Below are positions 7,018-31,801 of a DNA stretch of 35,278 nucleotides, piece by piece. The stretch lies in the NCBI GenBank assembly GCA_012514535.1, contig JAAZAA010000010.1, forward strand, positions 1 through 35,278. Direction: 5' to 3'. The position numbers and the translations under genes were made by a program. The notes beneath the pieces were generated by a model. It did no database searches, had not been told where the DNA came from, and saw only the letters and a program-made list of their open reading frames with translations. This stretch comes from Myxococcales bacterium. Its GTDB lineage: Bacteria; Myxococcota_A; Polyangia; Polyangiales; Polyangiaceae. Position 1 is the first letter of the stretch, and the number at the start of each line of letters is the position of its first letter.

Positions 7018-8318
7018 GCGGGTCCCGAACGCGTACGAGCCGGGGCGCGATCGTTTTCCTGGCGCTCTTGCTCGGGGGATGTCCGGAACGGACGGGACCC
7101 ACCCCGCCCTCGAGCTCTCTGGGGCAGGCGACCGCGACACCCGCCCCCAGCGCTCCTGCGGGTGACCCCATCGGGGCCGGTTCGGCTGCGCCTGCTGCGG
7201 GAGACCCCGTTCCGCCCGGTGCTGCTCCCAGTGTTGCTGCTCCCGGCTCCGCTCCGGACTCTATCTCCGCGCCCGAGGGCACGGCCTCCAGCAGTCCGGA
7301 CGAGCCCACCACGCCGCGGCCGTCGGGGTTGTCCGCGACCTCTCCCTGGAGCTCGCGGGAGGCCTGTCAGCGATTCCTCGCCACTGCGAAGGCCACCGCG
7401 CCCGCGAACACCCGCGCCGCCGAGCCCTCTGCGGGCGCGAAATCCCGGGGAGCTCGTGTCGGCACCTGGAACATCCGCTGGTATCCGGACGGTCGCCCCG
7501 GCAAGAAGGCCGCCGTGCCGGGGACGGACATCCTCTGGCTGGCGTGCGCGATCGCCGTGCTCGAGGTGGACGTGCTCGCCGTGCAGGAGATCAAGACCTT
7601 GCCTCGGGCCCGGGAGCGTACGGCGGAGCTCCTGGCGGAGCTCGATCGGCTCACCGGCGGTCGTTGGCGCGCGGAGTTCGACGACTGTCCTCAGCAGGCG
7701 ACCCAACACGTCGGGCTGCTGTGGAACGAGACGCGGGCGACGCTGACTCGACTCCACACGGAGCCGGCCTTGAATCCCCATGGCACCCCCTGCAAGGACA
7801 GCCTGCGGCCGGGGTTCGTCGCCGACGCGCGCTTCGTGGGTGGAGCGACGGCCCGCATCGTCTCCGTCCACTTCAAGAGCGGCGCCGAGCGCCGTTCCGT
7901 CGATCTGCGGAAGAAATCCTTCACGGCCCTCGAGGACGTCGTGAAGCGGGCGCGGCGCGACGCGCCCGCCACCCAGCTGATCTTCGCCGGAGACTTCAAC
8001 ACGATGGGTTGCTCCAGCTGTTCCCCCAAGATCGCGGCGGAGGAGGAGCGCGCCAGCGTGGAGGCGCAGCTGGCCTCCTTCGGGCTGCGCTGGCTCCCCA
8101 CCGAGCCGGGCTGTACCGAGTACTACCGGGACCGGGGGCACCTGCTGGATGGGTTCGTGGTGACCGAGGCCATGGCGCAGCAGGCCCATTTACCTGCTCG
8201 GGCCGAGGGCCTGTGCCGGGAGCTCGCCTGTGAGCGAACTCCCCAGGTCGGGCTAGCGCCGGCGATGCGCCAGCTGAGTGATCATTGTCCGGTGGTCATC
8301 GAGTTCGGCAACGAGTAG
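7014..8318 (+). CDS. endonuclease/exonuclease/phosphatase-family lipoprotein
   Basis: A 434-residue secreted lipoprotein. The GTG at 7014 overlaps the cstA stop and gives an ideal type II signal peptide: arginines, a hydrophobic core AIVFLALLL, then lipobox LGGC with Cys23. About 110 residues of Pro/Ala/Ser/Thr-rich linker follow. The catalytic domain of the EEP (DNase I-like) fold carries VGTWNIRW (metal-site Asn), LAVQEIK (catalytic Glu), FAGDFNTMG (Asp/Asn pair) and C-terminal LSDHCPVV (Asp/His). All core residues look intact, so an active metal-dependent phosphodiesterase is likely. Candidate substrates are extracellular or periplasmic nucleic acid, or phospho-lipids and sugars, and I cannot choose between them. 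Several cysteines in the domain (DDCPQQ, TPCKDS, GCSSCSP, PGCTEY, LCRELACE) would suit disulphides outside the cytoplasm. It sits between a transporter gene and a lipid-carrier transporter gene. Confidence 0.87.
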   Translation: MSGSRTRTSRGAIVFLALLLGGCPERTGPTPPSSSLGQATATPAPSAPAGDPIGAGSAAPAAGDPVPPGAAPSVAAPGSAPDSISAPEGTASSSPDEPTTPRPSGLSATSPWSSREACQRFLATAKATAPANTRAAEPSAGAKSRGARVGTWNIRWYPDGRPGKKAAVPGTDILWLACAIAVLEVDVLAVQEIKTLPRARERTAELLAELDRLTGGRWRAEFDDCPQQATQHVGLLWNETRATLTRLHTEPALNPHGTPCKDSLRPGFVADARFVGGATARIVSVHFKSGAERRSVDLRKKSFTALEDVVKRARRDAPATQLIFAGDFNTMGCSSCSPKIAAEEERASVEAQLASFGLRWLPTEPGCTEYYRDRGHLLDGFVVTEAMAQQAHLPARAEGLCRELACERTPQVGLAPAMRQLSDHCPVVIEFGNE

Positions 8319-8332
8319 CCTCCGACCCCACC

Positions 8333-9328
8333 ATGAACCTGCCCGCCGTACAGAGCCCGACGGAGAGCGAAGCGCCGGCGTCGAGCGCCGCCCCTGCGGG
8401 GGACATCTCCTGGAAAGACCTGCCTCGCGTGATGGGGAGCGGGGTCGCCATGGGGACCGCCGACGTGGTCCCGGGCGTCTCCGGCGGCACGATGGCGGTG
8501 GCGTGCGGGATTTACATGGAGCTCCTCGGCGCCATCAACTCCATCAACGCCCGTGCGCTCCAGGCTCTGGCCCGGCTGCGCCTCCGCGACGCGCTGCAGG
8601 AGATCCATTGGCGTTTCATGCTGAGCCTGGGGATCGGCATCGTGATGGCCTTCGTCGTGATGTTGCGTGTCGTTGGCCTGCCGCGGCTCCTCCAGGAGCA
8701 CCCGGAGCACGTCTTCGGGGTGTTCTTCGGGCTGGTCCTCGGCAGCGTGTTCGTCCTCGGGCGGCGCATCTCGGGCTGGAGCGTCCAGCTGGCGGGGATG
8801 CTCGCGCTGGGGGCGGCCCTGGGTTTCGGAATCGTCAACCTCGTGCCCGTGTCCACCCCCGAGAGCCCGGTGTTCGTGTTCTTCTGTGGGATGATCGCGA
8901 TTTGCGCGATGTTGCTGCCCGGCATCAGCGGCTCGTTCGTACTGCTCATCCTCGGCAAGTACGAGTACGTGATGGGCAGCGTGGAGCGGCTGCTGCGCTT
9001 CGATCTGAGCGCCCTGGCCGTGGTGGTGCCCTTCGCGCTCGGCTGCCTCGTGGGGATCGCCTCGTTCTCCCGAGCGCTGACGTGGCTCTTGCGCCGCTGG
9101 CAGCAGCCCATGATGGCGCTGCTCACGGGGCTCCTGGTCGGCAGTCTCTGGCGGATCTGGCCATTCCAGGTCGTCGTCGAGCAGGAGGTGCGCGGCAAGG
9201 TCCGGGTGATCTCCGCGACGCCCCAGTGGCCTGCGAGCTTCGATGGAGCGGTGCTGGCGCTCATGGTCGGCGGGCTCCTGGCCGTGGCCGCCGTCGAGCT
9301 GATCGCTGCGCGTCGTCAGGTTTCTTGA
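8333..9328 (+). CDS. DUF368 (PopT-type) polyprenyl-phosphate transporter
   Basis: A 331-residue multi-pass membrane protein of the DUF368 family. The diagnostic N-terminal motif MGTADVVPGVSGGTMA lies near residues 43-58, and a second, similar motif LLPGISGSFVLLILGKYE lies about 160 residues later. The internal repetition of the GxSGx motif is typical of this inverted-repeat fold. DUF368 proteins (PopT) were recently shown to recycle undecaprenyl-phosphate across the cytoplasmic membrane for cell-wall and surface-polymer synthesis, alongside the DedA family. The start at 8333 (15 bp after the preceding stop) puts a polar tail of about 30 residues before the first conserved helix; an upstream in-frame start at 8285 lies inside the preceding gene and is less likely. 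It probably belongs to the same transcription unit as cstA and the nuclease lipoprotein. Confidence 0.9.
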   Translation: MNLPAVQSPTESEAPASSAAPAGDISWKDLPRVMGSGVAMGTADVVPGVSGGTMAVACGIYMELLGAINSINARALQALARLRLRDALQEIHWRFMLSLGIGIVMAFVVMLRVVGLPRLLQEHPEHVFGVFFGLVLGSVFVLGRRISGWSVQLAGMLALGAALGFGIVNLVPVSTPESPVFVFFCGMIAICAMLLPGISGSFVLLILGKYEYVMGSVERLLRFDLSALAVVVPFALGCLVGIASFSRALTWLLRRWQQPMMALLTGLLVGSLWRIWPFQVVVEQEVRGKVRVISATPQWPASFDGAVLALMVGGLLAVAAVELIAARRQVS

Positions 9329-9337
9329 TACGGTCGC

Positions 9338-9375
9338 CGAGCTTCGCCTCGACTTTCCCCGCAGGGCGAAGCTCG
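9338..9375 (+). repeat. 11-bp perfect inverted repeat before the EVE gene
   Basis: Arms CGAGCTTCGCC (9338-9348) and GGCGAAGCTCG (9365-9375) pair perfectly around a 16-nt loop. The right arm runs into the purine-rich GAGGAG just upstream of the ATG at 9383. No T-run follows on the + strand, so it does not look like a standard terminator. A processing or translation-control stem is possible. Confidence 0.7.
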
Positions 9376-9382
9376 AGGAGCC

Positions 9383-9802
9383 ATGGCCCGACAGTACTGG
9401 CTGATCAAGTCCGAGCCCGACGCGTTCTCCTGGGATCAGTTCGTCCGTGACGGCCGCGCCGTCTGGGACGGCGTGCGCAACTACGTCGCCCGCAACAACC
9501 TGCGGGCGATGAAGAAGGGCGATCGCGCGCTGTTCTACCACTCGAACGTGGGCAAGGAGGTGGTGGGGATCGCCGAGGTGGTGCGGGAATACTATCCCGA
9601 TCCGACCGCTAAGGGGGCCGACTGGAGCGTCGTGGACTTCGTCCCCGTCGAGGCCCTGCGTCGTCCCGTGACCCTCCGGGAGATCAAGCAGGACCCGGCC
9701 CTCGCGGACATGCCCCTGGTCAAGCAACCCCGGCTGAGCGTGCAGCCGTGCACCGCCGAGCAGTTCCGCCACGTGGTGAACCTCAGCAAAAAGAGTCCAT
9801 GA
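9383..9802 (+). CDS. EVE-domain protein
   Basis: A 139-residue single-domain protein of the EVE (PUA-like) family, related to human THYN1. The signature QYWLIKSEPDAFSWDQF opens the protein. WDGVRNYVARNNLRAMKKGD and ALFYHSNVGKEVVGIAEV follow, then VDFVPVEAL and a C-terminal QPRLSVQPCTAEQF. The length matches the family (about 135-155). EVE domains bind modified bases in DNA or RNA and are often fused to or near restriction enzymes and other modification-dependent effectors. Here the gene is stand-alone and no nuclease or methylase of that type is next to it. The stop at 9800-9802 overlaps the following ATG at 9799 (ATGA). GAGGAG lies only 2 nt before the ATG, unusually close for a ribosome-binding site. 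Confidence 0.93.
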   Translation: MARQYWLIKSEPDAFSWDQFVRDGRAVWDGVRNYVARNNLRAMKKGDRALFYHSNVGKEVVGIAEVVREYYPDPTAKGADWSVVDFVPVEALRRPVTLREIKQDPALADMPLVKQPRLSVQPCTAEQFRHVVNLSKKSP

Positions 9803-11466
9803 CGAATCGACGGCTGCTGTTCTCCCTGATCGTCTTCCTGAGCTGCCTCTGGGGCGCCCCGGGGGTAGCGCTGGCGCAGGAGCCCGCCGGCTGCTCCTCC
9901 CCCCGCGCGGCGGTCCAGTCGGTCTTCTACTGGTTGGAGTTGGGTCGCTTCGACCCGGCGCGGGCGGCCCAGTGCCTGGATCGCAGCGGGCGCTCGGCGC
10001 GTCAAATCGAGATCAGCGCCCAGCGGGTCCGCTCCGTGTACGCGGATCGGCGGCTGTTCATCGACTACGAGCGGCTGAGCGAGGACCCCCACTGGGTGAA
10101 CCCGGAGACGGGCCGCCCGGAGGTGGCGCCTCACCCCGATCTGCCGGAGATCGTGGTGCGGCGAAGCGGGGACGGCCACTGGCACTGGCCGCGGGCGTCC
10201 CTCGATCGGATCGACGTTCTCGAGCAGGAGCGCTCCCTCGTGTCCGAAGACATCATCGCAGAGCTTCCGGACTGGATGCGCAACGACCTGTTCGGGATCG
10301 AGATGTGGCAGTTCCTGGCGCTGTCCGCGATCCTCGTCTTCGGGCTGGTGATCCGGAAGATCATCCAGTTCATCGTCAAGCGCCGTGTGACCGCGCTGGT
10401 GGCGCGCTTCGGCAAGCAGGGCGCCGCGAACCTGGTGGATACGTTCGCCTCCCCGGGAGCGACCCTGGTGATGGCGATCCTACTGCGCATCCTCTATCCG
10501 CAGCTGCGCCTGCCCTACGGGGCCGTGATGGCGCTGAACGTCTCCGTGCGGGTGATGGTGGTGCTGTCCATCATCTGGGCGGCTTATCGCTTCGTCGACG
10601 TCATCGCCGGCGTGATGTCGGAGAAGGCGGCGCTCACCGAGTCCAAGCTGGACGACCAGCTCGTCCCCCTCGTCCGCAAGGCGCTGAAGATCCTCACGGT
10701 GGTCGCGGGGGTCCTCTCGATCCTGCAGAACCTCAACGTCAACGTGGGCTCGCTCCTGGCGGGGCTCGGTATCGGTGGCGTGGCGGTGGCCTTGGCGGCG
10801 AAGGACACGGTCGCGAACTTCTTCGGGAGCGTGATGATCTTCATCGACAAGCCCTTCCAGATCGGTGACTGGGTCGTCGTCGCCGGGGTGGAGGGCATCG
10901 TCGAGGAGGTGGGGTTCCGCTCCACCCGCGTGCGCACCTTCTACAACTCGGTGGTGACCATCCCGAACGCGAAGTTCACGGAGGCGTCCATCGACAACTA
11001 CGGGCGACGACGCTACCGCCGGACCTATGCGACCCTGCGGCTCACCCACGACACCACACCCGAGCGCATGCAGGCGTTCGTCGAGGGGATCCGCGCCATC
11101 ATCCAGGCCAACCCCTACACTCGTAAGGACTATTACGAGGTGCACATGTCCGGGATCGGGGAGCACAGCCTGGACGTGATGCTCTATTACTTCTTCGAGG
11201 TGCGCACGTGGTCGGAGGAGGTCCGCGAGCGCCACAACGTGTACCTGGAGATCATGCGCCTGGCGAAGGCGCTCGGGGTGGAGTTCGCCGTTCCCACGCG
11301 GACCCTGCACATCGATCGGGCGGTGGCGCCCGGGAGCGCAAAGGAGCTAGCGCCGCCCACGTCGGAGGAGCGACTCGCGGAGATCTGCCGCAGCTTCGGG
11401 CCCGAGGGGGAGCAGGCGCGCCCCTCCGGGCCACGGATCACGGACGGGTTCTTGGCGACGAAGTGA
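9799..11466 (+). CDS. MscS-family mechanosensitive channel
   Basis: A 555-residue small-conductance channel homologue. A signal peptide (hydrophobic residues 6-19, cleavage near ALA-Q at 26/27) leads to a periplasmic domain of about 140 residues that is not part of minimal MscS. About four hydrophobic segments follow (near 170-192, 221-233, 247-268, 294-310). The pore helix is VGSLLAGLGIGGVAVALAA (316-334), and the cytoplasmic beta-domain includes KPFQIGDWVVV and TIPNAKF. The C-terminal domain ends in a polar tail. The family releases solutes on hypo-osmotic shock. This larger version with an N-terminal periplasmic domain may sense envelope state, which is inference. The ATG at 9799 overlaps the EVE stop and immediately begins the signal peptide, which fixes the start. 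It ends only 6 bp from the convergent gene at 11473, with no visible terminator between. Confidence 0.93.
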   Translation: MTNRRLLFSLIVFLSCLWGAPGVALAQEPAGCSSPRAAVQSVFYWLELGRFDPARAAQCLDRSGRSARQIEISAQRVRSVYADRRLFIDYERLSEDPHWVNPETGRPEVAPHPDLPEIVVRRSGDGHWHWPRASLDRIDVLEQERSLVSEDIIAELPDWMRNDLFGIEMWQFLALSAILVFGLVIRKIIQFIVKRRVTALVARFGKQGAANLVDTFASPGATLVMAILLRILYPQLRLPYGAVMALNVSVRVMVVLSIIWAAYRFVDVIAGVMSEKAALTESKLDDQLVPLVRKALKILTVVAGVLSILQNLNVNVGSLLAGLGIGGVAVALAAKDTVANFFGSVMIFIDKPFQIGDWVVVAGVEGIVEEVGFRSTRVRTFYNSVVTIPNAKFTEASIDNYGRRRYRRTYATLRLTHDTTPERMQAFVEGIRAIIQANPYTRKDYYEVHMSGIGEHSLDVMLYYFFEVRTWSEEVRERHNVYLEIMRLAKALGVEFAVPTRTLHIDRAVAPGSAKELAPPTSEERLAEICRSFGPEGEQARPSGPRITDGFLATK

Positions 11467-11775: not shown

Positions 11776-13032
11776 TCAGTCCGCGTAGTCCCCGGAGGCG
11801 GGCGGCGCGACGATGGTCTCCTGGGGCGCCTCCGGTGCCTCTCCTGCTTCCCCTCCGGCTTCAGGCGTGCCGGCGTCGGAGCCGCCCGGCGGCTCGGTAG
11901 CGGCGGCGTCTCCGCTTGGGCTCGTCCCCGAACTGCTCTCGCCCGCCCCGGAAGCGCCCTCCGACGGCTTGCGGGTGCGCTGCTTCGCTGCCTCTGCTTC
12001 GGCCCGCTTCGCCTCGAGTTCCCCGGGCGCCGACAGGGAGGTCACGAAGGCGGGGCGGGCGGTCGGATCGCAGCCGCCCCGGAACCCCGTCGCGTCGAAC
12101 TCGAAATCCAGAGATCCCGTAGAGGCGCTCCCCTCGTCGTCTTCATGGCGCACCTCGAAGCGGACCTTGCGGATGCCCGTGCGCGCGGGGGAGCAGTACT
12201 GCACCAGATAATACTTGGACCATCCCTTCTTCAGCCGCATGGCGAGCTCTTCGAAGGCGATGGGGAGGGAGTTCGTGTCCTGGCTCCGCTCCACCCCCTG
12301 GCGTCCGATGGCGTCGAGCTGTCGGGCCTCTCGGCCCCCGATGCCGACGGCGTAGACCTGGTGGGACGTCTCCGCGAGGGCGTCGAGGAGCGCCTGTTCC
12401 GTGACTCGCCCCGCGAGGTCGTCACCTTGGCTGAAGACGATCAGGGTCCCGACCCGCACCGGGCGCTTCACCCGCATGAGGCGGCTGTCCAGCTGACGCA
12501 GACCCTCGATCACGGCGCCGTTCAGGTTGCGAGATTCGTCCCTCGCCTTGAAGCGCTCGATGGTCTCGAGCTCCGGGCGCGGGGCGTCCGCGGCGCGCGA
12601 AAACTCCCCGAGGGGATGCAGCCGGGGGGAGCCGTCGAAGCCGAGCACGGTCACCCCTTGGGTCGGTCGCAGCTTGGCGACCAGGTTCTGTACGCCCTTC
12701 CGGATCGCGCTGCGCTGGGGATCCGTCCCCTGCGCCGCCCCGCTGAGATCGACGAGCACCACCGTGTGATGCAGGGCGACCGCGTCACGATCCAGCAGCG
12801 TGAGGCGGGTTTCGTTCGGTTCGAGGAGCACGCCGTCCTCACGGACGCTGAAGTCCTCCGCGCGCAGGTCCGTCACCGGCTCGCCTCCGTCCTCCACGGA
12901 CACGTAGATCGCGACGTTGCTCGGGCGTTGCACGGAGCTGTGCACGTGCTCGAGCTGCACTCCGCCGCAGGCGCTCACGAGCCACGCCGCGCAGAGCGCC
13001 ACCAGGGTGGTGGAGGAGAGAAATGGCTTCAT
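11776..13032 (-). CDS. VWA-domain lipoprotein
   Basis: A 418-residue lipoprotein with lipobox LVSAC (Cys22). A short Ig-like/VWFA-related entry segment (VTDLRAEDFSVREDG, 53-67) leads to a von Willebrand A domain beginning at HHTVVLVDLSG. The last 80 or so residues are Glu/Ala/Ser/Gly/Pro-rich low complexity. The MIDAS motif normally reads DxSxS. Here it is D95-L-S97-G-A99, so the second serine is missing and metal binding may be altered. Later VWA strands (TLIVFSQGDDLAG, HQVYAVGIGG) are well kept. Cysteines at YCSPA and GGCDP near residues 280-320 could form a disulphide outside the cytoplasm. The role is unknown; VWA lipoproteins generally mediate protein-protein contacts in the envelope. 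The start lies 34 bp after the Nudix gene, probably the same transcript. Confidence 0.85.
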   Translation of the reverse strand: MKPFLSSTTLVALCAAWLVSACGGVQLEHVHSSVQRPSNVAIYVSVEDGGEPVTDLRAEDFSVREDGVLLEPNETRLTLLDRDAVALHHTVVLVDLSGAAQGTDPQRSAIRKGVQNLVAKLRPTQGVTVLGFDGSPRLHPLGEFSRAADAPRPELETIERFKARDESRNLNGAVIEGLRQLDSRLMRVKRPVRVGTLIVFSQGDDLAGRVTEQALLDALAETSHQVYAVGIGGREARQLDAIGRQGVERSQDTNSLPIAFEELAMRLKKGWSKYYLVQYCSPARTGIRKVRFEVRHEDDEGSASTGSLDFEFDATGFRGGCDPTARPAFVTSLSAPGELEAKRAEAEAAKQRTRKPSEGASGAGESSSGTSPSGDAAATEPPGGSDAGTPEAGGEAGEAPEAPQETIVAPPASGDYAD

Positions 13033-18491: not shown

Positions 18492-20234
18492 TCACTCGAG
18501 GAGATCGAGGCGGTCCGCGTGGGCCTCGAAGGCGACGGCGTCTTCGGCGCCCATCGACGCGAGGTCGAGGGTGGTGTGCACTCGCATCCCCGAGTGGGCG
18601 CTCAGCGCCTCGGGCAGCGCCCACTTGCGATCGCCGAGGAGGGTGGGGGGCGTGTCCAGGGGGCGATCTGGCGTGAGCTGGCGATCGAGGGCGACCAGCT
18701 GCAGGCCAACGCCGTCGCGGTCTTCGTCCGTCGCGTTGTACACGCAGGCCTCCACGTGACGGCGGGGCTGCTGCCCGTGGACACGCAGATCGCACACCCG
18801 CACGTCGGCCAGGGCGGCGAGCAAGCGGCGCAAGTACGGAGCCTCCGCGGAGCGGAGGGCTTCCTTGAGCTGGAGGGTGGCCTGGGCCGCCGAGGCGTCC
18901 CCGAGGAACGCCAGCATGCGGGCCGCGTGGAGCCGCACGGGCCGGTGATTGGCCCGTAGCAGCTCGCGGAACGCCTCGCTCGGGGCGGCGTTGCTCCCGG
19001 AGGGATCGAGCTCGCCGAAGAAGGGCGGATCGATCTCCCAGTGGGTGCCGCGGGCCTCCGTGCTCCACTTGATGGCGCGGCCCGGGCCCAGGGGGCCCGC
19101 GAAGTAGAGGGGCCGGGTGGCGGTCTCCTCACGCTGCGCGCCGGTCCCCTCGAAGAAGGTCACGTGCACGGTGATCTCCTCGAGGGCTCGGTGTCCATTG
19201 TTGACCACGGCCACCTCGAGCTGCGTGCGGATCCTGTCCCGGCGCACGGTTTGGGACGAACCGATGACGATCAGCCCCAGGGTGGGGATGGGCTCCTCCC
19301 AGAGGGGGGAAGAGGCGCGCGCGCAGGCGCAGCGCTGCACGACCTCGAGGCCGTCGGTGCGGGCAGGCGTGTCGCGATCGGGCGGAGGTGCGGGCTGGTC
19401 CGTCGGCCGCGGCCTCGCCGGATCCGCGGGTGGAGACGCAGGTTCGGAGAGGTCGGCGCCGAGCGTCTCCGCCGCGCGCGCTCCTCGAGGATCGGCGAGC
19501 GCGGCATGGACGCGGGGCTCCGTCGGCGCGCGCAGGAGCTGCCGGGTGGTGCCGATGGCCGCGAGGATGCCCGCGGCGAGGGTGATCGCGACGGCGGTCG
19601 TCGTGCGAGGGAGAAAGCCCGCGAGGTTGGGGAGCGGGCGGCGCGTCTGCGCGGGGGTAGGGGCGACCGGCGTGCGGACGAGGTGAGGGACGTAGCGCTC
19701 GAGCTCCGTGACGAACGCCGCGCGCAGGGCCGCCTCGCGGATGGGGCTCCCGAGGAGCCGCTGATCGACGAGCAGGGCGATGGCGAGCACCAGGAGCGCC
19801 GCGGCCGCGCCCACGGAGAGGGTCAGGGTGGCGGTCGCGCTCGGGGTGAGGTGAGGGACCACCGCCGCCGCCACCAAGCTGGCGATGGCCGCCGCCGCCA
19901 CCGAGCTCACGTGCAGGATCAGGCGCTGGCGGCGGAGCTCCAAGGGGTGAGCGGCGTTGCCCAGGGAGAAGCGCTTCAGGGTCAGCTTGTCGTGAGGTAA
20001 GCCGGGCCAGTCGAGCTCGAGGTAGAGCTGGTCGCCCTCCGCGCGCGCCTGGCGCACCGCGTTCCACGGCACCGTGAGCTGAACCCCACTCGCGAGGGCG
20101 CCGGGCGCGTACCCTTCACTGAACGCTCCCACACCGAGAAACCCGAGCAGGAGCCCGTGAGGAGTGCAGTCGAGCTCCACGACGCCGATGGCGTTGCTCC
20201 TCGTGCTCGCGGATGCGATGGCCCGGATCCTCAT
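18492..20234 (-). CDS. conserved-looking membrane protein of unknown function
   Basis: 580 residues, no family recognised. The first 100 residues look like a soluble beta-rich domain (VVELDCTPHGLLLGFLGVG, VQLTVPWNAVRQAR). Two adjacent TM helices follow (about 107-128 and 137-157), then a loop and a third TM (about 211-230). The linker from 235-295 is rich in Pro and Ala. Next comes a short Cys motif, RCACARASSPLW (C302, C304). A probably immunoglobulin-like strand region (TQLEVAVVNNGHRALEEITVHVTFFEG, split here by me only for description) and a HEAT-like helical stretch (VRLHAARMLAFLGDASAA) complete the protein. The length, intact frame and GC-rich third positions support a real gene. Its ATG at 20234 lies 355 bp from divergent amtB. 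A role in envelope sensing or assembly is guesswork. Confidence 0.75.
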   Translation of the reverse strand: MRIRAIASASTRSNAIGVVELDCTPHGLLLGFLGVGAFSEGYAPGALASGVQLTVPWNAVRQARAEGDQLYLELDWPGLPHDKLTLKRFSLGNAAHPLELRRQRLILHVSSVAAAAIASLVAAAVVPHLTPSATATLTLSVGAAAALLVLAIALLVDQRLLGSPIREAALRAAFVTELERYVPHLVRTPVAPTPAQTRRPLPNLAGFLPRTTTAVAITLAAGILAAIGTTRQLLRAPTEPRVHAALADPRGARAAETLGADLSEPASPPADPARPRPTDQPAPPPDRDTPARTDGLEVVQRCACARASSPLWEEPIPTLGLIVIGSSQTVRRDRIRTQLEVAVVNNGHRALEEITVHVTFFEGTGAQREETATRPLYFAGPLGPGRAIKWSTEARGTHWEIDPPFFGELDPSGSNAAPSEAFRELLRANHRPVRLHAARMLAFLGDASAAQATLQLKEALRSAEAPYLRRLLAALADVRVCDLRVHGQQPRRHVEACVYNATDEDRDGVGLQLVALDRQLTPDRPLDTPPTLLGDRKWALPEALSAHSGMRVHTTLDLASMGAEDAVAFEAHADRLDLLE

Positions 20235-22097: not shown

Positions 22098-23165
22098 TCA
22101 GAAGAGGTTGCCCTGGGTGCCTGGCTCCTTGCGGCTCCCGTCGCGTCGCTTCTGGGTGGCGCCGAGGTGCTCGTAGGCCTTCTTCGTCGCGATGCGCCCG
22201 CGCGGGGTCCGGCCCAAGTAGCCCTGCTGGAGGAGGTACGGCTCGTACACGTCCTCGATGGTGTCCCGCGGCTCCGCGAGGGCCGCGGCCAGGGTCTCCA
22301 CGCCGACGGGGCCTCCGTCGTAGTGCTCGATGAGCACGCCGAGCAGGCGGCGATCCATCGTGTCGAGGCCCGCGTCATCGACGTCGAGGCGCGCGCAGGT
22401 CAGCTCGACGATCTCTCGATCGATCTTGCCGCTGCCGTGCACGTCGGCGAAATCGCGCGCCCGGCGGATCAGGCGGTTGGCGACGCGAGGCGTGCCCCGG
22501 GAGCGCACCGCCAGGGCGTAGGCGCCGCCCTCGTCGCAGGGGGTGCCCAGCAGAGCGGCGCTGCGGCTGATGATGCGCGCCAGATCCTCGGGCGGATAGA
22601 AGTCGAGGCGCAGCGTGACGCCGAACCGCTCCTGGAGGGGCTTCGTGAGGAGGCCGGTCCGGGTGGTCGCGCCCACCAGGGTGAAGGGCTTGAGGTCCAG
22701 GGGGATGCTCTCCGCGTAGGCGCCCTCGCCCATCATCACGTCGATGCGGAAGTCCTCGATGGCGGGGTAGAGCGCCTCCTCCACGGGCGCGCTCAGGCGG
22801 TGGATCTCGTCGATGAACAGGACGTCGTTCTTCTGGAGGCGGGTGAGCAGCCCCGTCAGCATGCCCTTGTGTTCGATGGCCGGGCCGCTCGACAGGTGCA
22901 GGTTCACCCCCATCTCGTAGGCGAGGATGTAGGCCAGGGTCGTCTTGCCGAGGCCGGGGGGGCCGCAGAGCAGGATGTGATCGAGGGGCTCGCCGCGCTT
23001 GAGGGCGGCGCGCACGAAGACCTGGAGGTTCTCCTTGTGCTTCGTCTGCCCCACGAAGTCGGCGAGGGAGTCGGGGCGAAAGATCCGATCGAAGCGGCGG
23101 TCTTCGTCACGGCCCTCCGCGTCGAGGAGGCGCTCGGAGGGCGGCGGAGAGCTCTGCTTGGCCAT
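22098..23165 (-). CDS. ruvB: Holliday junction branch-migration helicase RuvB
   Basis: A 355-residue AAA+ motor that, with RuvA and RuvC, migrates and resolves Holliday junctions during recombinational repair. It has the family start [12 protein letters not shown], Walker [10 protein letters not shown] (68-76), Walker [11 protein letters not shown] (D119, E120), the sensor region [12 protein letters not shown] and sensor 2 [16 protein letters not shown]. The C-terminal winged helix ends with [13 protein letters not shown]. Length is near the usual 335-350, with a short polar extension at each end. RuvA and RuvC are not in the window, so ruvB is separated from its usual partners. It converges on amtB. 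The 165 bp between ruvB and the leftward histidine kinase gene upstream hold no gene. Confidence 0.97.
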
Positions 23166-23330
23166 GGCGCGGCAACCTTACAGCACTTTGGCGTGGTCGG
23201 GGCGGGGCTCTGCCGGTGAAGGGGCCGCGGGGAGGGCCCGCGAAGGAGGAGGCCGCGACCGCGCCCTGAGCCGACCGGGGGCGGGCGGCGCGCGCGCCGA
23301 GGGCGTGCGGAGGACTCCGCCTCCGGGGCG

Positions 23331-24812
23331 CTAGCCCTCTCGAATGAGCGGCTCTCGCGCGCCCCAGGGACGGGGCGGGATGCTCGACAGGGACCCGGCG
23401 CCGACGTCGATGGGCAGGGAGATGGAGAAGCTCGCGCCCTCTCCCAGCGTGCTCTCCACCCGGACCGTCCCCCCGTGCATCTGCACCAGGCGCCGCGTGA
23501 TCGCGAGGCCCAAGCCGGTCCCGCTGCGCTGGGCGGTGGGGCCGCCGGTCTGCTGGTACTCGTGGAAGATGCGCTCGAGGGCCTCGGCGGGGATGCCGGG
23601 GCCCGTGTCGGAGACGACCACGCGCACGTCCTCGGTGTCCTGGGAGACGGTGACGCGGACGTAGCCGTCCGTGGTGAACTTGACGGCGTTGCCGACGACG
23701 TTGCTCAGGATCTGCCGTACGCGTCGGGCGTCCACGTGCGCCAGGGCCGGCGCCTCGGGGACCTCCAGCAGGATGGGCAGCCCCTTCTGCTCCGCGGTGA
23801 CGCGGGCCTCGGCGACGACGTCCCGGGCGATGCTGGCGACGTCCGCCAGCTCGCGGCTGAGGCGCAGCTCGCCCGACTCGATGGCGCTCAGGGCGAGGAT
23901 GTCGTCGATGAGGGAGCGCAGGTGCTCACCGCTCGTGCGCACGATGGTCAGGTTCTCGCGGGCCTCCTCCGAGAGCGGGCCGTCCACCTCCGCCAGGAGC
24001 ACGTCGGCGAAGCCGAGGATCGCGTTGAGGGGCGTGCGCAGCTCGTGGCTGAGGGCAGCGAGGAAGTCGCTGCGATCCCGATCGAAGGCGGTCGCGCCCG
24101 ACAGATCCTGCCGGTAAGCGCGCTCGGCCGCCTTGAAGCGCTCGAGCAGGACGTTGAAGGAGGCGGTGAGCTGCCCCACCTGGTCGATGGTGCGCACGGG
24201 GATCGGCTCTCCCTCCGGAGCACGCTCTTCCTTGGCCATCTCCACGATCCGGGTGCGCACGAACATGACGTCCCCGTGGACGTCGCGCGCGAGCGCCCAG
24301 GCCACGAAGGCCGCGGCGGCGATCAGGAGCGCCGCGAAGGTGGCCACGGAGGTCGCCAGGGAGCTCGAGGCGAAGGGGACCTCCGGCGCGCCGACGAGGG
24401 CGACGGCGAGCCGTTCGCCCCCCGCGAAGGGCGCCGCTGAGAAATGGGTGAGGCCCAGCTCCGTCTCCAGGGTGCCGGTGGTCTCTTCGACGAAGCGCCG
24501 GGCCAGCGCCGCGTCGACGGTCGCCAGGGAGCTCTCGAGGACGGCGGCGGTCTCCACCTCCAAGACGAGGAACTCGGCCCCGGCGCGCCGGGCGCTCTGT
24601 TGAACGAAGGGGCCGTGGTGCTCACTCGTGATCGCGTCCAGGCGCGCGGCGCAGGTGACCGCCAGGAGCTCGCTGCGGAGGTGGGCCGCGTCCTCTCGCT
24701 GAGAGCGGAGCTCGCGCACCCCCAGCGCGGCCACGGCCGCCGCGACCGCGACGCCGAGGAGCACGACGACGAGCGGAGCGACGATCTGGAAGGGGACGGC
24801 CGAACGCGCCAC
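23331..24812 (-). CDS. membrane sensor histidine kinase
   Basis: A 493-residue inner-membrane kinase. TM1 is at 9-32, an extracytoplasmic sensor of about 120 residues follows, and TM2 is at about 154-176. A HAMP-like linker comes next (VRTRIVEMAKEE, TIDQVGQLTASFNVLLERF). The HisKA box ALSHELRTPLNAILGF has phospho-accepting His256. The ATPase domain shows the N-box NVVGNAVKFT, G1 SDTGPGIP and G2 GTGLGLAI. All catalytic boxes are intact. No response regulator gene lies in the window, so the partner is elsewhere. The start is GTG at 24812, 1 nt after the stop of the acetyltransferase gene, so it is the third gene of a tightly packed operon with that gene and a Ser/Thr kinase. The ligand of the sensor part is unknown. 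Confidence 0.93.
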   Translation of the reverse strand: MARSAVPFQIVAPLVVVLLGVAVAAAVAALGVRELRSQREDAAHLRSELLAVTCAARLDAITSEHHGPFVQQSARRAGAEFLVLEVETAAVLESSLATVDAALARRFVEETTGTLETELGLTHFSAAPFAGGERLAVALVGAPEVPFASSSLATSVATFAALLIAAAAFVAWALARDVHGDVMFVRTRIVEMAKEERAPEGEPIPVRTIDQVGQLTASFNVLLERFKAAERAYRQDLSGATAFDRDRSDFLAALSHELRTPLNAILGFADVLLAEVDGPLSEEARENLTIVRTSGEHLRSLIDDILALSAIESGELRLSRELADVASIARDVVAEARVTAEQKGLPILLEVPEAPALAHVDARRVRQILSNVVGNAVKFTTDGYVRVTVSQDTEDVRVVVSDTGPGIPAEALERIFHEYQQTGGPTAQRSGTGLGLAITRRLVQMHGGTVRVESTLGEGASFSISLPIDVGAGSLSSIPPRPWGAREPLIREG

Positions 24813-24813
24813 G

Positions 24814-25437
24814 TCAGCTCGAGACTTCGTCGGTGGACAGCCGCGCGAACAGGGCGTGATCCAGCCAGCGGGAGGCGACGTACTCCGCCTGGCGCGCCAC
24901 CCCCTCGAAGCGGAACCCCAGCCGCTGGATCACCCGCAGGCTCGGGTAGTTGTCCGTGGCCGCCGCGCAGCGGATGCGGTGGACGTTCATGCGCTCGAAG
25001 GCGAAGCGCACGGCCTCTGCCGCCGCCTCCGCCATGAGGCCGCGACCGGTCGCGTCCCGACGTAGCCAGTAGCCGAGCTCACAGCTGCGGTGCAGGTGCA
25101 CGCAGGAGTCGAGGCCGACGACGCCCAACAGCGCGCGCGTCGTCTTGTCCCGCACGGCGAGGCGCACCGCCCGCCCGTTGTCCCAGTCCTTCTCGCAGGC
25201 GTCCGCGTAACGGTCGCTCGCTTCGGGGGTGTTGTTGAAGGGGACCCAGGGCAGCCAACGCTCCAGGTGCCAGCGCGACTCATCGATGACGTCCCAGAGC
25301 TCGGCGCTGTCCGGGCGCTCGACGGGGACGAGCACGGTGCGGGCCGTCTCCAGAGGGTGCCGGCGCAGGGACAGGCGTGAGGGGATCGTCAGCGACGTCG
25401 CGGGGCGCGGGCTGGATGCCAGCGGAGAGCGACTCAT
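24814..25437 (-). CDS. GNAT-family N-acetyltransferase, RimJ/RimL type
   Basis: 207 residues. After a short polar tail comes a GNAT domain that transfers acetyl from acetyl-CoA: TARTVLVPVERPDSAELW, then LERWLPWVPF (a RimL-like segment). CELGYWLRRDATGRGLMAEA follows, containing the acetyl-CoA loop (R/Q-x-x-G-x-G/A, here RDATGRGLM). NVHRIRCAAATDNYPSLRVIQRLGFRFEG completes the fold. RimJ/RimL relatives acetylate protein N-termini or small molecules; the target here is unknown. The ATG at 25437 overlaps the stop of the upstream Ser/Thr kinase (ATGA), and its own stop is 1 nt from the histidine kinase start. The acetyltransferase is therefore made together with two kinases, which hints at a regulatory rather than housekeeping role (inference). 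A start at 25521 would overlap the kinase gene deeply and is rejected. Confidence 0.9.
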   Translation of the reverse strand: MSRSPLASSPRPATSLTIPSRLSLRRHPLETARTVLVPVERPDSAELWDVIDESRWHLERWLPWVPFNNTPEASDRYADACEKDWDNGRAVRLAVRDKTTRALLGVVGLDSCVHLHRSCELGYWLRRDATGRGLMAEAAAEAVRFAFERMNVHRIRCAAATDNYPSLRVIQRLGFRFEGVARQAEYVASRWLDHALFARLSTDEVSS

Positions 25438-28025
25438 CGCCGACCCGCCCCCTGACACGCCGCCCTCGCGACGAAGATCTCGAGGTGCCCCGCCTCGTAG
25501 TCCCGCCAGCCCACGATCCACTCACCGGGCGCGGTCCCCGCGGTCAGCGCCGGGCGTGGCTGAAAGCCGCTGACACGGCTGATGATGCTGCTCGGCCCGA
25601 CGCCGTCCCGGTGGATCGGCGCCAGGCGCAGGCGCGAGCCCGCGAAGTAGGCGACCATGCCGCGCGCTCCGGTGGAGCCCCCGGCGGTGGCAGGCACGGC
25701 CACCACCGTGGGGCGGATGGCTTCGGGGGCGAACTCGCGATGCCAGAGGGGCTCCTTCTTGTCGTGAGGCACGAAGGCCGCGAGAGCGCCCGCGCCCTCC
25801 TCGTCCCACACCAGGAGGCAGCCGTCGTCGCCGCACACGAGGTTCGGCTCGGAGTGGGGCCCGGGGCCGTGGACCTGCACGAGCTCGCCGGCGAAGACGT
25901 CCTGTCTGGGATGGGGCGTCACGCCGGAGGAGAGCTCCGGGGCGCTCAGGGGGACCCGCAGCAGCTGGATGTTCCCCTGGGCGGGGGTGGGGCTGTGGCG
26001 CAGCGCCACGAACAGCGTGTCACCGACGACCGTGGCCGAAGTGTGAGAGACGCCGCCCTTGGCGAAGGCGGTGAGCGCCACCATGTTCCCGAGGGGGTTG
26101 AGGTCCGCGTCGAGCCGGCGCACCACGATGTCCGAGACCGTGGCCTTGTTCTTGCGCTCACTCCAGAGGGCCACGAAGCCCCCGTCCTGCAGGGGCGCCA
26201 GGGTGGGGTAGTACTTGTCCTTGCGGGCCTCGGAGAGCAGCCGCGCGGGGCTGGCGATGCGGCCGTCGGCCTCGAGCCGCCGCACGTAGACGCCGGGCTC
26301 CTTGCCGCCGGACTCCCAGTAGATCAGCGCGAGATCGTCGCCCGCGGGGTGCAGCGCCGGGCTGATCGTGGAGCTCGACTCCGGGGTGATGTTGAGGGCC
26401 GGGGAGATCCGACGCATCGCGCGGTCGAGCATGGCCACGTAGGCGTGCCGCCGGCGGCCGTCCTGGTGCATGTCCGTCCAGGCCGCGAGGAGGGTGCCCT
26501 GGCTGATGACGAGCGCCGGGTAGGAGGCGGGATCCATCACCTCGAAGGGGCGCGGACGTCCCATGCCCACGAGGCGACAGTCTCCCGGAGGCTCCTCGAA
26601 GGCGGCCTCCGTGTGCGCGAGCAGCGATTGCCCGACGATCTTGCCGCCCTGGAGGTCGAGGGCCTCCTTGAGCTTGGCGATGGCGGGCTCGTGCTCCCCC
26701 GTGGAGAGCAGCCGCTGGGCCTCGTTGATGACCACCGCGTAGGGCGCGGTCTCCACGGGTTCCCGCTCCGCCTCGCTCGTCGCCGCGTGGGTCTCGGAGG
26801 TCAAGCCCGGCGGGTGCAGCACGTACAGCCAGACGGCGTAGCCGCCGAGCGCCACCGCGGCGGCGCCGAGCAACCAGGCGATCGCCGTCCCGGCGCCCTT
26901 GCGCGGGGGCGGAAGGGAGGTGGGCTGGACGCTCTGCGGCTCCTGGGAGGAGCCCGCGAAGGGAGCGTCTCCGAAGGCGGGGTTCAAGGGCTTCAGGGCG
27001 CCCGTTCCCGGCTCCGTGCTCCGGGGAGTCGCGTCCGTCCCCGCGCCGTGGAGCGCCGCGTCCGGCAAGGGGCGCCCCTCGACGAGCGCGTCGACGAGGT
27101 GCCCCTCGAGCTCGCTCGGGAGAGGAGAGCGCATGCGCTGCGCCTCGGGGCCGAGGGCGCGCAGGAGCGAGTCGATCAACGCCTGAGAGGTCTGGAAGCG
27201 GCGCGTCGGATCCCGATCGAGGGCACGTTGAAACCACTCATCGAAGCTAGGGGGCAGATCCGGTCGCAGCTTCGACGGGACGGGGATGGGGGCGCCGGCG
27301 ATCTGCGCCAGGATCATGGCGACGCCCTGCTCCACGTTCCACACGGTCTGCCCCGTGAGGCACTCGTAGATGATGCAGCCGAGGGCCCAGAGATCCGCCC
27401 GGTGATCCACTTCGCCCTGGCCCTTCGCTTGCTCGGGGCTCATGTACGCGGGCGTCCCGAACAAGGCGCCTTCCCGCGTCAGGCGGACGTTCTTCTCGTC
27501 GCTCGCCGTCTCGTAGAACTTGGCGAGCCCGAAATCGACGAGCTTGGCCAGGAGCTCGCCGTCCTCGTCGCGCGTGAGGAAGATGTTCTCGGGCTTGAGA
27601 TCCCGGTGGACGATGCCGGCCTCGTGCGCCTTCCTCAGACCTCGGGCCACCTGCGTCGCGATCTTGACCGTGCTCTCCACGGGCATCTGTCGCACGCGGG
27701 TCATGCGGTCGTAGAGGCTCTCCCCCTCGAGCAGCTCCATCACCAGGAACGGCCGGTCGTCGTACATGCCGACGTCGTAGACCTCGCAGATGAACGGGCT
27801 GCGGATGGCGGCGGCGGCGCGGGCCTCGCGCATGAACCGCTCCCGGACGACGTGGGAGGAGAGCAGCTCGTCCGCCAGGATCTTCACGGCGACCCGCTTG
27901 CCGATATCGACGTTCTCGGCCTCGTAGATCGCCGCCATTCCGCCCCGGCCAATTTCCTGGGTGATACGGAACTTCCCCTCGAGGACGGTACCGATGGGGA
28001 CCTTGGACCTGTTCTGCGAGGGCAT
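25434..28025 (-). CDS. membrane Ser/Thr protein kinase with propeller-like sensor
   Basis: An 863-residue PknB-type (Hanks) kinase. The cytoplasmic catalytic domain covers about residues 20-290: glycine loop IGRGGMAAIY, Lys48 in VAVKIL, HRDLKPEN (Asp142), DFG (164-166), and SPEQAKGQ in the APE position. A Pro-rich juxtamembrane linker precedes one TM helix (about 378-402). The extracytoplasmic part (403-863) has a short helical stretch (INEAQRLLSTGEHEPAIAKLKEAL, TPR-like). Repeated strands follow, ending in patterns such as LLAAWTD, LALIYWES, FVALWSE, IVVRRLDADLNPLG and LLVWDEE, which suggest a beta-propeller. Such kinases are typical of myxobacteria. The stop overlaps the acetyltransferase start. 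The first residues MPSQNRSKVPIGTVLEGKF put the domain right at the N-terminus, supporting the start at 28025. Confidence 0.93.
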   Translation of the reverse strand: MPSQNRSKVPIGTVLEGKFRITQEIGRGGMAAIYEAENVDIGKRVAVKILADELLSSHVVRERFMREARAAAAIRSPFICEVYDVGMYDDRPFLVMELLEGESLYDRMTRVRQMPVESTVKIATQVARGLRKAHEAGIVHRDLKPENIFLTRDEDGELLAKLVDFGLAKFYETASDEKNVRLTREGALFGTPAYMSPEQAKGQGEVDHRADLWALGCIIYECLTGQTVWNVEQGVAMILAQIAGAPIPVPSKLRPDLPPSFDEWFQRALDRDPTRRFQTSQALIDSLLRALGPEAQRMRSPLPSELEGHLVDALVEGRPLPDAALHGAGTDATPRSTEPGTGALKPLNPAFGDAPFAGSSQEPQSVQPTSLPPPRKGAGTAIAWLLGAAAVALGGYAVWLYVLHPPGLTSETHAATSEAEREPVETAPYAVVINEAQRLLSTGEHEPAIAKLKEALDLQGGKIVGQSLLAHTEAAFEEPPGDCRLVGMGRPRPFEVMDPASYPALVISQGTLLAAWTDMHQDGRRRHAYVAMLDRAMRRISPALNITPESSSTISPALHPAGDDLALIYWESGGKEPGVYVRRLEADGRIASPARLLSEARKDKYYPTLAPLQDGGFVALWSERKNKATVSDIVVRRLDADLNPLGNMVALTAFAKGGVSHTSATVVGDTLFVALRHSPTPAQGNIQLLRVPLSAPELSSGVTPHPRQDVFAGELVQVHGPGPHSEPNLVCGDDGCLLVWDEEGAGALAAFVPHDKKEPLWHREFAPEAIRPTVVAVPATAGGSTGARGMVAYFAGSRLRLAPIHRDGVGPSSIISRVSGFQPRPALTAGTAPGEWIVGWRDYEAGHLEIFVARAACQGAGRR

Positions 28026-28525: not shown

Positions 28526-28885
<360 letters not shown>

Positions 28886-29273
28886 GGGGGCGCGCCGGGG
28901 GCTCCCGGAGGTCGAGGGGCCCCTCCGTGCGCAACGGCCTCGTTTCTTGATGGCGCCCCGACGGGCGACTCCAGGGCAGCGTCCGTGGGGGCGCTGCCCT
29001 GTCGCACGTCGAGTGGGTGGAGTGTGGGTGGAGCCAGGGGGGGAGGCGTCGTCCTCCGCTGGAGGTGGGCGCGTATCCGACACTCCGAGGGCGGGCCGTG
29101 TCTGTGATGGGCTCCGGTTCATCGGCGGTGAGTCGAGCGTGAGCCATTCCGCTACCTCGCTCTAGGTATTGCGAGTCGACTAACCGTAGACTCCTCCCCG
29201 CAGGTCGGTGGGCGCGTGCGGCGCTGGGCTTGCGAAAGGCAGCCCGAGAGCGGGCGCGGGAGATCGCTACGGA
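28886..29273 (+). promoter_or_regulatory. 388-bp glnB-glnA intergenic region
   Basis: No gene is seen. It contains a palindrome GAGGGGCCCCTC (28914-28925) and a perfect 10-bp stem: CAGGGCAGCG (28972-28981) pairs with CGCTGCCCTG (28992-29001). The stem has no T-run and could attenuate read-through from glnB. A separate glnA promoter probably lies in the last 150 bp, but no boxes could be assigned with confidence. Confidence 0.5.
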
Positions 29274-30686
29274 ATGGACGCGAAGCAAGCAATCGAGCTG
29301 GGCAAGAAGAGCGGGGCCGTCATGGTCGATTTGAAGTTCATCGACCTGCCCGGGAAGTGGCACCACACCACGGCTCCGTTCCACCGCTTGGAGGTAGAGA
29401 GCTTCGAGGAGGGCTTCGGGTTCGACGGCTCGTCGATCCGCGGCTTCCAGCCGATCAACGAGAGCGACATGCTGCTCATCCCGGATCCTGCCACCGCGCG
29501 CATGGATCCGTTCACGAAGCACCCGACGCTGTCCTTGCAGTGCACCGTGCGCGACACGATCACGCGGCAGAAGTACACGCGCGATCCCCGCCACGTGGCG
29601 GCCAAGGCGGAGGAGTACCTACGCAGCACCGGCATTGCGGACACCTGCTACTTCGGCCCCGAAGCGGAGTTCTTCGTGTTCGACGACGTGCGCTTCGACT
29701 GCGGGCCGAGCGGCTCCTTCTATTTCATCGACAGCGTCGAAGCGGACTGGAACTCGGGGCGCGACGAGCGCCCGAATCTCGGCCACAAGATCCGCCACAA
29801 GGAGGGCTACTTCCCGGTCCTGCCCCAGGACACCATGCACGATCTGCGCACGGAGATCTGCCTGGAGATGGAGCGCTGCGGGCTGGAGGTGGAGCTCAGC
29901 CACCACGAGGTCGCGACCGCCGGTCAGGGCGAGATCGACATGCGCTACGACTCGCTGCTGGCGATCGCCGACAAGCTGATGTGGTTCAAGTACATCGTGA
30001 AGAACGTCGCGGCTCGCTACGGCAAGAGCGCGACCTTCATGCCGAAGCCCATCGCCGGCGACAACGGCAACGGCATGCACTGCCACCAGTCCCTGTGGAA
30101 GGACGGCAAGCCCCTGTTCGCGGGGGACGGCTACGGCGGGCTCAGCGAGATGGCGCTCTGGTACGTCGGTGGCCTCCTGCGCCACGCGCCCGCGCTCGCG
30201 GCGCTGACCAACCCCACCACCAACAGCTACAAGCGCCTGGTCCCGGGCTTCGAGGCCCCCGTGAACCTCGCCTACTCCAGTCGCAATCGCTCGGCGGCGA
30301 TCCGCATCCCGACCTACTCGCAGGCGGCAAAGGGCAAGCGCCTCGAGGTGCGCTTCCCCGACCCCACCTGCAACCCCTACGTGGCATTCCCCGCCATGCT
30401 CATGGCGGGCCTCGACGGCATCAAGAACCGCATCGATCCGGGCGATCCCCTCGACAAGGATCTCTACAGCCTCAGCCCCGAGGAGCTGAAGGACGTCCCG
30501 AAGCTCCCCGTCTCCTTGGAGGACGCCCTGACGGCTCTGGAGCGTGATCACGAGTTCCTGCTGCAAGGAGACGTGTTCACCCGGGACGTCATCGAGACCT
30601 GGATCGAGTACAAGCGCGAGCACGAGATCGCCCGCCTGCGTCAGTACCCGGCGCCCATCGAGTACGAGATGTACTACGACATCTGA
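29274..30686 (+). CDS. glnA: glutamine synthetase, type I
   Basis: A 470-residue dodecameric enzyme that makes glutamine from glutamate, ammonia and ATP. Family motifs are visible: the N-terminal beta-grasp with [12 protein letters not shown], metal and glutamate site residues in [11 protein letters not shown], the catalytic-domain loop [29 protein letters not shown], and RSAAIRIP with [12 protein letters not shown]. The adenylylation tyrosine is kept: Tyr398 in [10 protein letters not shown], equivalent to Tyr397 of the E. coli enzyme. This makes it a GSI-beta type open to control by adenylyltransferase together with PII. The ATG at 29274 was chosen because it matches the usual N-terminus and has GGGAG about 10 nt upstream; a more upstream in-frame start would add a non-family tail. 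Confidence 0.98.
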
Positions 30687-30910: not shown

Positions 30911-31801
30911 GTGGCTAAGGACGACATTCTCGAGTCGACGGTGGAGATCACCGTGGCGCGCAGCGCGGACGGCCTCGTGCGCCCCGTGGGCGTGGATCGC
31001 AGCGCGCTGCTCGTGGTGCTCTCGGGAGGGCGGATCGGGCAACGGGCGGTGGTCGGAGAGGCGCCCGTGGTGATCGGTCGGGGCTCCGGGTGCTCCCTGA
31101 TGCTGCAGGGCGACTCCGTCAGTCGGCAGCATGCCCGCATCGAGTGGACGGGAGCGGGTCACGTGCTCACGGACATGCGCTCCACCAACGGATCGTTCGT
31201 GAACTATGAGCGGGTCACCCGGGGTCAGCTGCGGGACGGAGATCACATCCAGATCGGCAAGACGCTGATCAAGTACCTCGCTGGCGACAACCCCGAGGCG
31301 GCCTATCACGAGAACCTCGATCGTCTGGTGCGTCACGACGCCCTCACGGGCGCGCTGAACAAGGCGGCCTTCGAGGAGGAGCTGCGCGTCGCCTGCGGCA
31401 GCGACGGCGGGGTGAGCCTGGTGCTGTTCGATCTGGATCACTTCAAGGTGGTCAACGACGACCACGGGCACACCGCCGGCGACATGGTGCTGCGGGGGGT
31501 CGGCGCGCTTGCCCGAGGGATGGTGGACGACCGCTCCCGGTTCGCGCGCGTGGGCGGGGAGGAGTTCGCCGTCGTGGTGCCGGGCGCCTCCTTGAACGGA
31601 GCGTTCGAGCTGGCGGAGGGCCTGCGGCGCGCCGTGGCGAGGCAGAGCTTCGTGTTCGACGGCGTCCAGATCCCCGTGACGCTCAGCCTCGGGGTCTGCC
31701 AGCGGTTGCCCGGAGAGTCCGCCGCCGAGCTCTACGAGCGCACGGACCGCTCCCTGTACGCCGCGAAGCACGCGGGGCGAAACTGCGTGCGCGCGGGCTG
31801 A
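30911..31801 (+). CDS. FHA-GGDEF diguanylate cyclase
   Basis: 296 residues, soluble. An FHA phosphothreonine-binding domain (about 45-122) shows GRGSGCSLML, SRQHARIEW and STNGSFVN, with the Arg and Ser of the phospho-site in place. The GGDEF domain (about 140-295) has RHDALTGALNKAAF, VLFDLDHFKVVND, the active-site GGEEF (215-219) and YAAKHAGRN at the end. It should make cyclic di-GMP from two GTP. The stretch before GGEEF (DDRSRFARV) has no RxxD at the inhibitory-site position, so product feedback through the I-site is probably absent. The FHA domain suggests activation by a phosphorylated partner, and the membrane Ser/Thr kinase about 3 kb to the left is one candidate (inference). The start is a GTG; 224 bp separate it from glnA. 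Confidence 0.93.
   Translation: MAKDDILESTVEITVARSADGLVRPVGVDRSALLVVLSGGRIGQRAVVGEAPVVIGRGSGCSLMLQGDSVSRQHARIEWTGAGHVLTDMRSTNGSFVNYERVTRGQLRDGDHIQIGKTLIKYLAGDNPEAAYHENLDRLVRHDALTGALNKAAFEEELRVACGSDGGVSLVLFDLDHFKVVNDDHGHTAGDMVLRGVGALARGMVDDRSRFARVGGEEFAVVVPGASLNGAFELAEGLRRAVARQSFVFDGVQIPVTLSLGVCQRLPGESAAELYERTDRSLYAAKHAGRNCVRAG

Follow-up and report, generated by a model that had tools for sequence, protein, structure and literature searches.

We analysed a 35,278-nucleotide stretch of a Myxococcales bacterium genome (contig JAAZAA010000010.1 of assembly GCA_012514535.1), hereafter the window, and focused on three consecutive minus-strand genes coding for a Ser/Thr kinase (STK), a GNAT acetyltransferase and a membrane histidine kinase (HK1). 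STK (25434..28025, 863 residues) begins with ATG at 28025 and ends with the TGA at 25434. GNAT (24814..25437, 207 residues) starts with an ATG at 25437 that overlaps the STK stop codon as ATGA, and terminates with the TGA at 24814. HK1 (23331..24812, 493 residues) starts with GTG at 24812, a single base (C, 24813) past the GNAT stop codon, and ends with the TAG at 23331. These coordinates confirm the ATGA overlap and the 1-nt gap described for the three leftward genes in the initial annotation of this DNA, and all three reading frames are intact. The simplest reading is that these three genes are what is left of a former unit of four, whose last gene, HK2, codes for a predicted pseudo-histidine kinase. 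The most cautious conclusion is that the functional core consists of HK1 and HK2.

The kinase domain of STK (27177..27968, residues 20-283) matches Pkinase (PF00069) with 163.9 bits and, judging by its HRDLKPEN and DFG motifs, STK is a catalytically intact Hanks-type kinase. Hydropathy predicts one membrane segment at residues ~382-403 (26817..26882), followed by an outer sensor domain. In the AlphaFold model of the last 470 residues (25437..26846; predicted local distance difference test (pLDDT) 92.9, predicted template modelling score (pTM) 0.90), TPR-like helices precede a beta-propeller, probably seven-bladed, resembling the propellers of sialidase, YncE and prolyl-oligopeptidase in structure comparison. 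The transmembrane Hanks kinase with a propeller-like outside domain that had been read from the letters alone is therefore well founded. Four cysteines (483, 731, 736 and 857) are invariant across 43 relatives, and the two located at the start and the end of the propeller may close the ring. STK does not qualify as a PASTA-type PknB, since the NF033483 profile scores 266.9 bits against a cut-off of 450 and matches the kinase part only, the outer domain being a propeller.

GNAT belongs to the Acetyltransf_3 family (PF13302, 92.9 bits), and its nearest solved structure is 1nsl. The initial annotation had called it RimJ/RimL-type, which stands for the fold family but not for the enzyme: scores of 56.6 and 55.7 bits fall far under the RimJ and RimL equivalog cut-offs of 190 and 184. 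Close homologues, mostly 48-74% identical, are found in most genomes of the family, while the best matches in the same order outside it reach only E ~1e-27, and GNAT is a separate Polyangiaceae family, distinct from RimJ/RimL. HK1 harbours HisKA (72.1 bits) and HATPase_c (105.2 bits) domains with all catalytic boxes intact, including the H-box SHELRTPLN (24024..24050), and has transmembrane segments at residues 14-32 and 156-174. The window locus contains no response regulator gene, so that the classical two-component arrangement is absent, in agreement with the earlier description of a membrane histidine kinase without a regulator. Taken singly, the three gene types are ordinary: the window genome yields 89 Pkinase matches, and a search with the HK1 kinase core finds 63.

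The trio lies in a conserved block. Downstream of HK1, a gap of 165 nt (23166..23330) separates its TAG from ruvB (22098..23165, minus strand), which directly follows and has orthologues at the same place in relatives. On the other side, glnK, coding for a PII protein (28547..28885), and glnA (29208..30686) are the divergent plus-strand flank, and their position is likewise kept. The usual order in Polyangiaceae relatives is glnA-glnK, divergent from STK-GNAT-HK1-HK2-ruvB, with HK2 occupying, in most of them, the site between HK1 and ruvB. The STK-GNAT-HK1 order and strand recur in dozens of non-redundant Polyangiaceae loci, and the arrangement therefore exceeds chance. The block is present in Sorangium cellulosum So ce26, So ceGT47 and So0157-2 and in several Polyangium strains. 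Adjacency of the three genes in a single strain, which had been set beforehand as the observation that would overturn their reading as a unit, is ruled out by this synteny. Conservation across Myxococcota, suggested at the outset, proves narrower: many Polyangiaceae have the three genes side by side on one strand, but the phylum as a whole does not. Of 282 phylum genomes, the HK2 profile matches 21, and 19 of these belong to the family of the window genome (with relatives recorded as Polyangiaceae, Sorangium, Polyangium, Minicystis and Byssovorax); a few HK1-HK2 pairs are also found in a second family within the order. The four-gene unit is a Polyangiaceae-wide operon, not a phylum-wide one.

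With regard to HK2, the model (pLDDT 88.4, pTM 0.64) depicts a protein with several membrane passes, an alpha/beta domain on the outer side and a HisKA/HATPase core. In the PDB, this core is closest to GacS and to the pseudokinase RetS, whose gene is not known to lie beside gacS. Motifs were counted in an alignment of 66 HK1 and 68 HK2 non-redundant proteins. The key catalytic residues are kept in all 66 HK1 proteins. HK2 keeps the Ser-His-Asp of the H-box in 68/68, as well as the H-box Asn (68/68), but the G1-box Asp in none (0/68), and the N-box Asn in only 3/68 and 2/68 at two positions, the second being occupied by His in 48/68. Its HATPase_c scores amount to 17-36 bits, compared with 105 bits for HK1. 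Four residues after the histidine, a position that holds Thr or Asn in kinases capable of phosphatase action, 66 of the 68 have Ser, Ala or Gly, the motif being mostly HDxxS or HDxxA; no receiver domain was found by Pfam in three HK2 proteins. These features designate HK2 as a putative membrane pseudo-histidine kinase with a retained phosphoacceptor histidine, which could be phosphorylated yet, by its sequence, would lack the usual mode of ATP binding. The degenerate domain is under purifying selection, with a ratio of nonsynonymous to synonymous substitution rates (dN/dS) of 0.05-0.35 in ten pairs. A decaying pseudogene is ruled out by these ratios, well under 1, and by the open frames in dozens of genomes.

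The junctions single out the two histidine kinases. For all three gene pairs, the start codon giving the spacing nearest to -4 was chosen, so that the three can be compared fairly, each count being a maximum. An overlap of exactly 4 nt joins HK1 to HK2 at 61 of 65 non-redundant junctions, compared with 17/44 for STK-GNAT and 12/46 for GNAT-HK1. HK1-HK2 is the tightest link in the family. The spacing of the other two pairs varies among relatives, and the sequence does not show the production in fixed proportion that the initial annotation had deduced from the window's packing. The genes were also compared by partial distance correlation, with the ruvB and glnA signals removed: HK1-HK2 gives 0.87, STK paired with either histidine kinase 0.71-0.72, and GNAT 0.49-0.54. 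These values come from 23 related loci, with no unlinked, fast-evolving pair as control, and are therefore suggestive only. This ranking suggests that STK is a likely pathway partner and GNAT the loosest member.

Linkage is lost unevenly as well. In one clade, STK, GNAT and the histidine kinase pair have dispersed to separate places, all being retained, and HK1 and HK2 stay together in the genomes where this has happened. On the GNAT tree, many inner branches of which are weak, the adjacency of STK to GNAT changes at least 5 times and that of HK1 to GNAT at least 8 times; GNAT is inverted at the G016 locus, and another gene lies between GNAT and HK1 at L097. In L097, L131 and L136, GNAT and HK1 are separated by 1 to 4.5 kb of other sequence, HK1 and HK2 being still adjacent. 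At the dispersed loci L069, L074, L082 and L138, the HK1-HK2 pair is often found near UppS- or CdsA-like genes or a thiolase, the nature of these genes having been read from the sequence by eye. When the neighbours of HK1-HK2 pairs, relocated ones included, were clustered and some of them scanned, no recurring gene family able to be a response regulator emerged.

Such breakages would be expected if glnA-glnK/STK-GNAT-HK1-HK2-ruvB were an ancestral order kept by inertia, with a shared function confined to the HK1-HK2 pair. That unrelated housekeeping genes (ruvB, glnK and glnA) belong to the same conserved block points in this direction. Against it speak the junctions of the four genes, which remain short and often overlapping despite 30-50% protein identity between genera, and the near-fixed overlap of HK1 with HK2. 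We consider an inherited neighbourhood possible but not probable; the confidences given here overlap, since a functional HK1-HK2 pair is compatible with inherited order for STK and GNAT. A shared nitrogen control with glnK was also considered and set aside: the sigma-54 core pattern has 10 matches in the window against 6.2 expected, none of them in the STK-glnK gap.

In the window itself, HK2 queries match the HK1 core only, and the HK1-ruvB gap contains no HK2 remnant. Deletion from the genome is nevertheless ruled out, as HK2 stands alone on another contig (C278, L064:5071-6906), with neighbours on the opposite strand, among which are a MatE transporter and a DUF1552 gene. Two genus-mates (G001 and G002) likewise have HK2 on other contigs. 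In G001 (L149, G001:C23:20000-36000, ~6200-10100), the locus has lost GNAT, and HK1 comes directly after STK, followed by ruvB; the G002 GNAT sits on a very long branch of the GNAT tree. A live and a dead histidine kinase gene are adjacent in the relatives, while the window genome has both, unlinked. It is because relatives carry HK2 in the locus and the window's genus holds it elsewhere that we read the trio as a derived state. The trio described initially is sound with respect to its gene identities, packing and synteny, but what it represents is the remnant of a larger unit whose tightest link, HK1-HK2, is missing from the window. A kinase that appears orphan in one genome may have lost its neighbour and not its partner.

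We propose, giving it an even chance of being right, that the functional core of the system is a two-protein sensor kinase in which HK1 contributes the working ATP-binding domain and HK2 the acceptor histidine, with a regulator encoded elsewhere and STK as a second sensor. HK1 would sense through its small outer domain and carry the only working ATP-binding domain of the pair, whereas HK2, with its dead one, would sense through its polytopic membrane domain and outer alpha/beta domain. We infer that the two form a heterodimer, inside which HK1 most likely phosphorylates the HK2 histidine, the phosphate then flowing to the external response regulator. As its motif lacks the Thr or Asn used for phosphatase action, HK2 would be an acceptor and donor, not a phosphatase. 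STK, presumably produced from the same transcript, might act as the second surface sensor, and GNAT might be an accessory modifier.

Several observations weigh against this two-protein relay, in addition to the limits of the correlations given above. HK2 is detached in the window's genus, so that tight co-translation of HK1 and HK2 is not essential, and two family genomes (G011 and G012) hold STK and GNAT but no HK2 match. No response regulator lies near HK1/HK2, which leaves the output unproven; the regulator would be unlinked, and orphan two-component genes are common in myxobacteria, amounting to 34-43% in the genomes shown (PMC4603909). As for the origin of the pair, the canonical core nearest to HK2 within the same genome is, narrowly, that of HK1, but in the reverse search with HK1, HK2 ranks only ~33rd. 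A tandem duplication is therefore not established, and a recent one is supported in one direction only (from HK2 to HK1). Finally, RetS and a ChrS mutant indicate that a pseudokinase can act without its own histidine as acceptor (PMC5992135, PMC9491836), and the invariant histidine of HK2 need not be one either.

This last point leads to a different role for HK2, that of a modulator of the RetS/DivL type, which would bind HK1 and adjust its activity allosterically or as a sink, with a histidine serving structure or dimerisation and never phosphorylated in the signal path. RetS, to which the HK2 core model is so close, has an H-box that is intact despite a dead ATPase domain, and inhibits the autophosphorylation of GacS (PMC5992135), and the ChrS pseudokinase functions without its histidine (PMC9491836); retention of the histidine alone is therefore not decisive. 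Yet the HK2 histidine and the next Asp are invariant in 68/68 although the other catalytic machinery is gone, and HK2 lacks the phosphatase-motif Thr and the receiver domains that RetS uses in its mechanisms 1 and 2. On balance, we regard a purely modulatory HK2 as rather doubtful.

The initial annotation had further imagined a single machine joining phosphorylation, acetylation and sensing, in which STK, GNAT and the histidine kinase would modify one another or a common target by Ser/Thr phosphorylation, acetylation and His phosphorylation. Co-oriented adjacency is indeed retained in many genera, and STK correlates with both histidine kinases beyond ruvB and glnA. But GNAT, missing from the G001 locus, inverted in G016 and least correlated, is the member most easily lost or separated (also in L097), which makes this idea the least supported, and the clade with STK, GNAT and the kinase pair kept at separate places speaks against it too; we find it unlikely. 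Its most elaborate version, a heteromeric surface receptor in which the live/dead pair relays phosphate, STK, encoded on the same transcript, gates the pair and GNAT resets it, so that three chemistries converge on one unlinked response regulator, seems to us very improbable.

None of the single parts is of a new kind, and the proposed HK1/HK2 relay has precedents among the live/dead pairs of histidine kinases already described. One is FasB/FasC of group A Streptococcus, likewise two side-by-side sensor-kinase-like proteins, one a proposed pseudokinase: the kinase domain of FasC is dispensable, its H246 is required, and a heterodimer was detected by two-hybrid (PMC12675982). The likeness lies in the shared histidine kinase architecture and the arrangement, and the fas locus differs in having the FasA response regulator and a small-RNA output, whereas the HK2 operon has a Hanks kinase and an acetyltransferase. 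The Pseudomonas aeruginosa GacS/RetS pair (PMC5992135) is similar in core structure, but RetS possesses receiver domains and an HExxT phosphatase motif, and HK2 neither. In Rhodobacter sphaeroides CheA3/CheA4 (PMC3591291), kinase activity and phosphoacceptor also reside on separate proteins; CheA3, of the chemotaxis type, is wholly without a kinase domain, while HK2 keeps a degenerate HisKA-type one and HK1 keeps its own histidine. No HATPase domain is detectable in 3.66% of HisKA proteins (PMC3591291). Caulobacter DivL (PMC4211667), a pseudo-histidine kinase controlling another kinase, is the mirror image of HK2, having lost the histidine (replaced by Tyr) and kept the other characteristic motifs.

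Among the papers covered, our literature search retrieved no publication on the locus, nor on a family-wide operon joining a live/dead histidine kinase pair with a propeller Hanks kinase and an acetyltransferase. Such pairs are known from a few cases, namely FasB/FasC, GacS/RetS and CckA/DivL, and the Polyangiaceae pair adds one that an entire bacterial family has conserved, in dozens of natural versions and with a near-fixed overlap, one genus having unlinked the genes. What purpose a live histidine serves in a dead histidine kinase thereby becomes testable with evolution-guided mutants of Sorangium and Polyangium strains available in culture.

Some features of the surroundings deserve mention. 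Near the detached HK2 of the window genome, a gene (L064:470-2743, minus strand) codes for a protein combining an M12B (reprolysin) metalloprotease domain (PF01421, 83 bits) with a disintegrin domain (PF00200, 59 bits), an ADAM-like architecture which seems unusual for a bacterium. In the window, two long putative minus-strand genes (18492-20234 and 11776-13032) have no Pfam match at E 1e-5. Downstream of glnA, a gene for an FHA-GGDEF protein is present in the window (30911-31801) and in several relatives, the loci compared being L040 (15457-16314), L043, L045 and L046, and other relatives, some of them Sorangium-like, have a further Hanks kinase in its place.
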